Notes under the pieces: model-generated
The model's input: the letters and a program-made list of their open reading frames with translations, nothing else
What the model was told of the DNA's origin: nothing
Databases searched by the model: none
DNA from: Salegentibacter salinarum
GTDB taxonomy: Bacteria > Bacteroidota > Bacteroidia > Flavobacteriales > Flavobacteriaceae
Assembly: GCF_900168115.1 (NCBI RefSeq)
Contig: NZ_FUZC01000001.1
Coordinates: forward strand, 1 to 64,000
DNA length: 64,000 bases
Direction: 5' to 3'
Made by a program: the position numbers and the translations under genes
Part shown: positions 1-2,895 of the stretch, piece after piece
How the letters are laid out: each line of letters begins with the position of its first letter
Numbering within the stretch: the first letter of the stretch is position 1

Positions 1-84
1 ACCCTTGCCTTTGGCTAATGATAGGTAGCTATAAACCCCCATAACGGACTTGCACCGTCAAGTGATATGCCATGCACGGCACAC
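1..84 (-). mobile_element. Group II intron (class IIC-like), 5' end only
   Basis: Read on the minus strand, the sequence from 84 begins GTGTG, the group II intron 5' splice-site consensus, and continues with ACGGTGCAAGTCCGT and then GGCAAGGGT near position 1. These are conserved domain I features of bacterial group II introns, and the opening closely resembles class IIC introns such as B.h.I1 (from memory, not aligned). The element starts just after the infB terminator hairpin, which is the known target of class IIC introns. The rest, including any reverse transcriptase, lies left of the window. Whether the intron is complete cannot be seen here. Confidence 0.8.
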
Positions 85-87
85 CAT

Positions 88-118
88 AAAAAAAAGCGGC
101 CCTAAAGCCGCTTTTTTT
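88..118 (-). terminator. Intrinsic terminator of the rimP-nusA-infB operon
   Basis: A GCGGC/GCCGC stem with a 6-nt loop is flanked by an A-run and a T-run, so it can work in both directions. It lies 23 bases past the infB stop and directly before the intron 5' end. Confidence 0.85.
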
Positions 119-141
119 GTATTTAACAGGAAACTTAATTA

Positions 142-2895
142 CTACTTAAGTTTCTTTTTCACTTCTACTTCACGGAAAGACTCTATAACATCCCCTTCTT
201 TAATATCGTTGTAATTCTTTACCTGGATACCACAATCGTAACCTTTGGCAACTTCTTTCACATCGTCTTTAAAACGTTTCAGTGAAGCAAGTTCGCCGGT
301 ATAAACCACAACGCCTTCGCGGATTAAACGTATTCCAGAACTTCTATAGATCTTACCAGAAGTAACCATACAACCTGCAATGGTTCCAACTTTAGAAATC
401 TTAAAGGTTTCTCTTATCTCTGCAGTACCAGTGATTTCTTCTTTAAGCTCCGGTGAAAGCATTCCTTCCATCGCATCTTTAAGATCGTTGATCGCATCAT
501 AGATAATAGAATAAGTTCTGATATCAATTTCTTCTTTATCGGCTACCTGTCTTGCATTTCCTGCAGGACGAACGTTAAATCCAATAATTACCGCATCTGA
601 AGCCGAAGCTAGTAACACATCACTTTCTGTAATGGCTCCCACTCCTTTGTGAATTATATTCACCTGAATTTCTTCAGTAGATAATTTAAGGAAACTATCG
701 GTTAATGCTTCTACCGAACCATCAACATCACCTTTAAGAATAATATTAAGTTCTTTAAAGTCACCTAAAGCAATTCTACGTCCAATTTCATCCAGGGTAA
801 TGTGGCGTTGAGTTCTAACACTCTGCTCACGTTGTAACTGAGTTCGTTTAGCCGCAATATCCTTGGCTTCACGCTCATCTGTCATTACCTTAAATTTATC
901 ACCCGCTTGTGGCGCACCGTCAAGACCAAGAATTGAAACCGGAGTTGCCGGTCCTGCTTCTTTAACCTCGTGCCCTCTTTCGTCGTGCATTGCCTTTACC
1001 TTACCACTATGGCGTCCCGCTAATACGTAATCTCCAATTTTAAGAGTTCCGGTTTGCACAAGGATAGTCGCGATATAACCTCTACCTTTATCAAGGAAGG
1101 CTTCCACAACTGTTCCCGTAGCTACTTTAGAAGGATTGGCTTTTAATTCAAGAATTTCAGATTCCAGTAAAACTTTCTCCAGAAGTTCTTCAACTCCTAA
1201 TCCTGTTTTAGCTGAAATATCGTGCGACTGAACTTTACCACCCCAGTCTTCTACCAACAGGTTCATTCCTGCAAGTTTCTCTTTAATCTTTTCTGGATTT
1301 GCGGTTGGCAAATCAGATTTATTAATCGCAAATACAATTGGTACACCGGCAGCCTGGGCGTGAGAAATAGCCTCTTTGGTTTGTGGCATCACATCATCAT
1401 CTGCAGCGATTACAATAATCGCGATATCTGTTACCTGAGCTCCACGAGCACGCATCGCCGTAAAGGCTTCGTGACCAGGAGTATCAAGGAAGGTCATTTT
1501 TTCACCATTCTTAAGCTTTACGCTATAAGCTCCAATATGCTGGGTAATACCACCACTCTCACCGGCAATTACATTCTCTTTACGAATATAATCCAGTAAA
1601 GATGTTTTACCGTGGTCTACGTGACCCATTACCGTTACAATTGGCGCTCTGTCTTCAAGATCTTCAGGATTTTCAGGAACTTCTTCTACTGTTTCTTCAA
1701 TGTCTGCAGTTACAAAATCTACTTCGTAACCAAATTCATCTGCAACAATAGAAAGTGTTTCAGCATCTAAACGCTGATTCATCGTCACCATCATTCCCAG
1801 AGACATACAGGCAGAAATTACTTTCGTTACCGGCACATCCATCATTGTAGCAACCTCACTTACAGTTACAAATTCTGTAACCTTAAGGATTTTACTATCA
1901 GTTTCCTGCTGCGCAAGATCATCTTCTGATCGTTGACGGTGTTGATCTCTCTTATCTCTTCTATATTTAGCTCCTTTACCTTTACCAGATTTACCCTGAA
2001 GTTTTTCAAGGGTCTCTCTAACCTGCTTTTGAACTTCTTCTTCGCTAGGCTCTTCTTTAGTAATAGGTTTAGCTCTTTTTCTCGCAGCTCCTCCTTTTTT
2101 AGGACCCTGATTTGAAGCACCCGGCTTCACATCTTTACTAATTCTACGACGACGCTTCTTACGTTTCTCTTTCTCCTTCTTCTCGTCGGCAGCTTTCTTC
2201 TCGTCTTTCTTCTTTTCCGGCTTTTTAAATTGAGAAAGGTCAATTTTCTTTCCAGTAAAGTTAGGGCCGTTAAGCTTGGTATAATTAGTTTTATGAGTCA
2301 TTGACTCAGGATCTTTGGGCTCCTCTTCTTTTTCTGAAGGAGTTTCCTCTTTCTTAGAAACTTCTTCAGGCTCTTTCTCTTCTTTAGAAGGTGCTTCTTC
2401 TGCAGGTTTTTGAGATTCAGGCTTTTCTTTTTCGGCTTCAGGCTTTTTAGCTTCTTCTGGCTGCTTAGATTCGGCTGGCGCTGGTTGCTCCTCTTCTTTT
2501 TCGGCTTTTTTCTCTGGCTTTTTATCCAGATCTATTTTACCTACTTTTTTAGGACCGGCTAATTTAGCTCTGGCAGTAACTGCCTCTTCCTTGCGCTTCT
2601 CATCCTCTTTCTTCTCCTCGACTTTGCGCTTTTCTTCAAGCTCTCTTTCCCTTGCTAAACGCAATTCTTCCTTCTCCTTTCTTTTTTCTTCACCAACCTC
2701 TTTAGACTCGACTTTTTTAGACTTGTCGGTCTCAAATTCATCAGAAAGCACCTGATAAACTTCGGATGAGATTTTGGTAGTAGGACGCGCCTCAATATCG
2801 TGACCCTTAGAATTTAAAAATTCTACAGCCCGATCTAACGAAATATTGAATTCACGTAATACTTTGTTTAGTCGCATTGTTTTTGCTTCAGCCAT
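142..2895 (-). CDS. infB: Translation initiation factor IF-2
   Basis: IF-2 is the GTPase that places initiator tRNA on the 30S subunit and promotes subunit joining. Residues 1-55 form an IF2 N-terminal domain. Residues about 60-330 are a long Lys/Glu-rich low-complexity linker typical of Bacteroidota IF-2, followed by a second IF2-N-like segment (about 335-395). The G domain starts at about 417 with GHVDHGKT (424-431), then DTPGHEAF and NKSD. The C-terminal domains 2-4 follow, so the 917-residue protein is complete. It is the last gene of rimP-nusA-infB, 55 bases after nusA. A second in-frame Met at residue 7 is an alternative start. Confidence 0.97.

Follow-up and report, generated by a model that had tools for sequence, protein, structure and literature searches.

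Contig C17 of Salegentibacter salinarum opens with 84 nt from the front of a class IIC group II intron, which runs on the minus strand behind the intrinsic terminator of infB. These 84 nt are almost certainly the 5′ end of a retroelement that has recently spread in Salegentibacter and that would land at terminator hairpins by reverse splicing, guided by EBS1-IBS1 pairing; the position, family, copy number, empty site and EBS1-IBS1 covariation are the parts of this explanation that are read from the sequence. The window (the whole stretch analysed, the first 64 kb of C17 in a genome of 40 contigs and 4.31 Mb) begins at the contig end, and because of this the 3′ part of the intron is missing from it. 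Coordinates are collected in Table 1.

Table 1. Features at the start of the window
Feature	Position	Strand	Basis
Intron 5′ end (GTGTGCC..., first part of domain I)	1-84	-	12 further identical 5′ ends; RF02001 on 12 longer copies
IBS1, TATG (last T of the T-run plus ATG), pairing with intron EBS1 CATA	85-88	-	Covariation; congener empty site TTTTTTTATG
infB intrinsic terminator (A-tract, GCGGC stem, loop, GCCGC, T8), readable both ways	88-118	-	Folding; present in most congeners
infB, encoding translation initiation factor IF-2; host gene, upstream of the intron	142-2895	-	ORF; Pfam IF-2, 144.9 bits

Read from 84 to 1 on the minus strand the sequence is GTGTGCCGTGCATGGC...GGTGCAAGTCC...GGCAAGGGT, with GTGTGCC from 84, GGTGCAAGTCC at 56-46 and GGCAAGGGT at 9-1, so that the GTGTG start and domain I motifs reported in a preliminary description of this DNA are both present. 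The terminator arm GCCGC occupies 100-96, the T8 run 95-88 and an ATG 87-85, so that, in agreement with that description, the first G of the intron is the fourth base beyond the T-run; the intron itself is confined to 1-84 and 85-118 is the terminator region. The matching orientation and the placement behind the infB terminator likewise hold. The ATG was considered as a part of the intron and rejected, since it is present at the empty sites. The terminator folds with -17.8 kcal/mol (window 78-124, z -3.1), and was not flagged by a consensus terminator scanner. An Rfam search of the first 3 kb of the window gave no intron match, returning only sub-threshold matches, mostly to sRNA families over the terminator. 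The 84 nt precede the part of the intron modelled by RF02001.

The genome contains 13 copies of the intron 5′ end, the one in the window included, so the match in the window is not due to chance; searching with the 84 nt also returned one diverged remnant on C34 (104 nt, ~89-91% identical) and two short matches. The 12 other copies match the 84 nt exactly and run on for 270-355 nt to their contig ends with zero differences among them, and each of these 12 scores 153.4 bits against RF02001 (group-II-D1D4-3), for which the window copy is too short. Such identity suggests recent activity of the intron, in so far as this can be judged from sequence. The 3′ ends were found using the full intron of a relative as a DNA query, since domain V was missed by RF00029. 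Ten contig ends carry the 3′ part of the family (ten 3′ ends against 13 5′ ends), identical over 314-665 nt and ending ...CTTTCTACCCGAT (...CCCGAT). They contain the open C-terminus of a reverse transcriptase (RT) and two hairpins, one resembling domain V and interrupted by a 2-nt bulge, the other resembling domain VI. In the S. salinarum genome a central stretch of ~0.9 kb, with the RT N-terminus, is not seen, and the RT is represented by its C-terminal part; an intact RT in these copies is made probable by the relatives and by the open 3′ part of the frame. A PADLOC scan gave general RT matches and nothing beyond them.

The RT encoded on C9 was examined as the protein of this family and rejected, since the C9 intron is unlike the family in its 5′ part and its reading frame is broken (by eye). 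C9 starts inside another group II intron, and C9:1-1590 (L025) holds the 3′ part of that intron, in which the RT appears to be frameshifted. A short ORF-less group II intron near position 80,740 of C13 (L060; D1D4-2 96 bits, domain V 64.5 bits) is 96% identical to the C9 intron over 256 nt.

The window element is a real and typical class IIC intron, and a new member of a class for which landing behind terminators is already known. Full-length relatives measure 1906 and 1940 nt. Their intron-encoded proteins exceed the cut-off of NCBIfam TIGR04416 and have RVT_1 and GIIM domains with no HNH endonuclease domain (three of three scanned; a fourth protein in the scan came from the different intron on C9). 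Against structures in the PDB the RT of a relative scores 425 bits with 7uim and 409 bits with GsI-IIC, compared with 156 for LtrA and 136 for the Thermosynechococcus elongatus RT, which we take to represent classes IIA and IIB. Domain V was recognised by eye and by folding, falling below the RF00029 cut-off; it forms a 10-bp helix, a 2-nt bulge, three basepairs and a 4-nt loop, with CGC at the position of the triad. CGC at this position is typical of class IIC. The preliminary assignment as a class IIC-like intron is upheld by an RT closest to IIC enzymes, by the RF02001 matches of the longer copies and by the terminator sites, and the Rfam group II models that it had recommended as a check do recognise the family in domain I, although not in domain V. 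In class IIC a lone EBS3-IBS3 pair selects the 3′ exon and EBS2 is lacking; in the present family the 3′ exon starts with C in seven of ten 3′ flanks. Matches to the 355-nt 5′ part were found in nine of 149 genomes searched, S. salinarum among them, and RF02001, which also catches other intron families, had matches in 21 of the 149; four of 15 Salegentibacter genomes had no RF02001 match.

Insertion of class C introns behind terminators has been described (PMC4424553, PMC8919778, PMC3522654). Our literature searches found no paper on Salegentibacter group II introns, nor on Bacteroidetes IIC introns and terminators, and for Flavobacteri group II introns with terminators the sole match was, by its title, on a different subject.

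At the infB site the empty sequence in congeners is TTTTTTTATG / CTTTGATTT (the stroke marks the junction), with the variants TTTTTTTATG / CTTTGATTTCC in S. tibetensis and TTTTTTTATG / TTCAAATTT in a further congener (G009). By eye, 13 of 14 congeners are free of an intron in the ~150 nt behind infB. The fourteenth, S. agarivorans, has a different IIC-like intron at its infB terminator, with the junction GCCGCTTTTTT / GTTTGCCC... and an RF02001 score of 63 bits. The comparison of empty sites proposed in the preliminary description therefore gives an insertion, and not a conserved non-intron element. That the segment is an element of the infB 3′ region other than an intron, such as an attenuator or an sRNA, is refuted by these empty sites and has a negligible probability; the weak sub-threshold Rfam sRNA matches over the terminator are what might be said for it, but the identical sequence stands behind 12 other sites with unrelated genes, and its longer copies match RF02001.

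Among the ten 3′ flanks, that on contig C19, CTTTGATTTTAG, is alone in matching the DNA behind infB, and does so in all 11 congeners compared (72-91% identity; the other three of the 14, two with a different flank and one with a contig that runs into a further intron, were left out). We infer from this synteny between two separate contigs that the intron joins C17:1 to C19:1. No target-site duplication is apparent at this joint. The domain V, RT and 3′ end that the preliminary description had suggested seeking are represented on C19, which carries the C-terminal part of the RT together with hairpins resembling domains V and VI. The 84 nt could instead be a truncated or ORF-less relic of an intron at infB and immobile, given that the contig holds no more of it and that such forms do exist (the remnant on C34, an ORF-less intron on contig C27 of S. 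agarivorans, and the 1147-nt first copy on C4 of Salegentibacter sp. 24). We regard this as very improbable, because the 84 nt are identical to copies that continue for hundreds of bases, the syntenic partner starts inside an intact 3′ part, and the cut is accounted for by a contig break at a repeat. On S. agarivorans C27 (L086) the ORF-less intron, of ~385 nt, is directly followed by the RT C-terminal fragment of another copy.

All 13 sites of the class IIC family lie directly behind a hairpin followed by T6-8, the junction being 9-11 nt past the stem. The letters after the T-run are ATG in nine sites, GTG in two, and AATG and AGTG in one each; by comparison [AG]TG follows the T-run in two of 12 other terminator-like hairpins of the window found in our own scan. 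A same-strand stop codon is located 51-63 nt upstream in 12 sites, and the thirteenth is behind tRNA-Asp. The upstream genes by Pfam are infB, tail-specific protease, gyrB, ribosomal protein L31, ndk, HSP20, an OmpA family member, Ppx/GppA, DUF3467, DUF4293, an iron-sulfur protein with Fer2_3 and Fer4 domains, which we read as being of succinate dehydrogenase type, and one gene without a match. This amounts to an outbreak of a IIC intron at no fewer than 13 terminators of this flavobacterium, for the most part behind core genes (infB, gyrB, ribosomal protein L31 and ndk, together with tRNA-Asp).

The ATG or GTG at the end of the target is explained by base pairing. The loop given in Rfam as uGCaaaacAaagC is UGC-CAUA-CAAAGC in this family, and its first four variable letters, EBS1 CAUA, pair with the last four before the junction, TATG or TGTG. 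Over 31 intron rows, 105 of 124 positions pair (allowing G-U) and all four do so in 20 rows. None of 100,000 shuffles was as good, the best giving 91 pairs and the best 12 fully paired rows; the test was designed after the pattern had been noticed, on letters copied by hand and with related introns that are not independent. As a control for register 36 registers were compared, and those of the same helix gave z of 3.9 to 7.8 against 1.9 for the best other. Examples of EBS1 and flank are ACTA-TAGT, CGAA-TTCG, CAGA-TCTG, ATTA-TAAT and AAAA-TTTT. Five of the 31 rows pair poorly (G030_C130 none of four, G013_C123 one of four, and L169, L187 and L191 two of four). The family to which the window copy belongs was entered with TATG, found at nine of its 13 sites; by hand its two TGTG sites make four of four pairs with wobble, and its two AATG or AGTG sites three of four. 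The target code is readable from sequence, four letters of EBS1 against four letters before the junction.

The rows come from Salegentibacter, its relatives and mostly Bacteroidales. Of 73 RF02001 matches, 12 identical own copies and four weak ones (<=43 bits) were set aside and the remaining 57 considered. From these were excluded 26 of a family with a different 5′ end, four degraded 5′ ends and one older intron on C32 with an interrupted 5′ flank; the 26 left gave 14 rows, with sites of one lineage entered once, and the own family one more. A second source of 35 loci gave 16 rows, the others being duplicates, fragments without a 5′ flank, or loci with an unrecognisable 5′ end. The excluded family (L246-L261 and others) begins GTGTGTGCCCAGC and lies at AT-rich sites that by eye are not behind hairpins.

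From the known behaviour of class IIC one would expect the intron RNA, together with an RT/maturase that lacks an endonuclease domain, to reverse-splice into single-stranded or cruciform DNA at the hairpin of an intrinsic terminator. The hairpin would be selected together with the four EBS1-IBS1 basepairs that CAUA forms with TATG or TGTG where the T-run ends, 9-11 nt beyond the stem. The intron would then be copied into cDNA without an endonuclease of its own, with priming at replication forks. Since the infB terminator stays intact, the copy there is expected to be mostly silent and would be spliced only out of read-through transcripts.

The preliminary description had also raised the question of the 3′ end of the infB message. 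The concern is weak, given that the stem and T-run are undamaged by the intron. It is unlikely that the intron alters infB expression, for example through loss or masking of the terminator or through transcription that starts inside the intron. The intron does lie 57 nt behind the infB stop codon with a convergent gene next to it, but stem and T8 are untouched, no promoter was found in window 1-400 (0.9 expected by chance, giving little power), and 13 identical insertions, many behind core genes, would speak for harmlessness. Next to the intron on C19 stands a convergent ORF that encodes a SPOR domain, and this gene is likelier to be affected than infB, as it would now be ~1.9 kb from a terminator reading both ways; transcripts running antisense across the intron might result.

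The intron resembles the known class IIC introns (Bacillus halodurans B.h.I1, GsI-IIC and the intron of 7uim) in its RT/maturase without endonuclease, its RF02001 domain I core, its position behind intrinsic terminators and its short EBS1-IBS1. It differs in belonging to a Bacteroidota branch, in an EBS1 of CAUA in place of the A-rich loop of the Rfam consensus, in a target with ATG or GTG after the T-run, and in a domain V below the RF00029 cut-off.

Another intron, which we term intron B, is present as 11 copies at 11 sites in S. agarivorans (the infB terminator, on G004:C47 at the 3′ end of L134, and ten other terminators) and as one copy in Salegentibacter sp. 24. It shares with the window intron the RF02001 fold, an IIC-like RT and terminator sites including the same infB terminator. 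By contrast it starts GTTTGCCC (the first base being ambiguous) and sits at the T-run itself, with EBS1 AAAA and without ATG or GTG. The RT of its intact copy in sp. 24 is again nearest to IIC RTs, though at a greater distance than that of the window family, with 268 bits (7uim) and 253 bits, against 152 for T. elongatus and 144 for LtrA. That the infB terminator has been taken by a different intron in each of two species suggests that introns have terminators as landing sites in common.

Introns of the family also neighbour other introns. On C32 a copy of the window family has the 3′ junction ...CCCGAT / TGTGCCCGG..., which apparently falls a single base within the 5′ end of an older intron. 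Judged from this 3′ side, the junction would fit IBS1 TATG formed by TAT and the first G of the older intron. On the minus strand of C34 at ~54500-53400 (L021) a degraded intron B and the 104-nt family remnant are stacked behind one terminator (by eye). In Salegentibacter sp. 24 two loci contain head-to-tail pairs of introns with zero bases between them (L089:2274-6119 and L090:2615-5701), the junctions being ...TATCCGAT / GTGCGCC and ...TACTCTAT / GTGCGCC. The second introns are 91.6% identical over 1940 nt and both have EBS1 ATTG, which makes four of four pairs with the 3′ end CGAT of one first intron and three of four with CTAT of the other. The hairpin of domain VI ends 2-3 nt before the tandem junction. 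The loci differ in their first introns and 3′ flanks, so that there were probably two insertion events. The history may be mosaic, given 84% identity between the second intron of one locus and the first intron of the other.

A tentative reading, to which we give somewhat less than an even chance and which rests on these two cases, is that a sister lineage in sp. 24 changed its EBS1 to AUUG, fitting the 3′ CGAT of its own family, and landed twice behind siblings with the domain VI hairpin replacing that of a terminator. IIC introns could then use each other's 3′ ends and grow tandem arrays. Insertion of the first copy in front of the second would leave the same arrangement and fits EBS1-IBS1 worse, with two of four pairs at each terminator tail (TGTG and TTTT, worked out by hand) against four and three pairs behind the first copy. 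If retargeting is correct, it shows how an intron aimed at terminators can come to use its relatives as targets instead. There is a precedent in T. elongatus, whose introns, in the part of PMC2882425 consulted, occur as many close copies, in families that differ in EBS and target, with insertion into other introns. These are class IIB and lie inside the ORF of another intron (a twintron) rather than at its 3′ end, and that part of the paper does not describe terminator targeting.

The terminator tail of infB, TTTTTTTATG, recurs across several genera (L133, L136-L138, L140, L143, L145, L150, L151 and L154-L156). In L143 the sequence CATAAAA...TTTTATG forms a single long palindrome.
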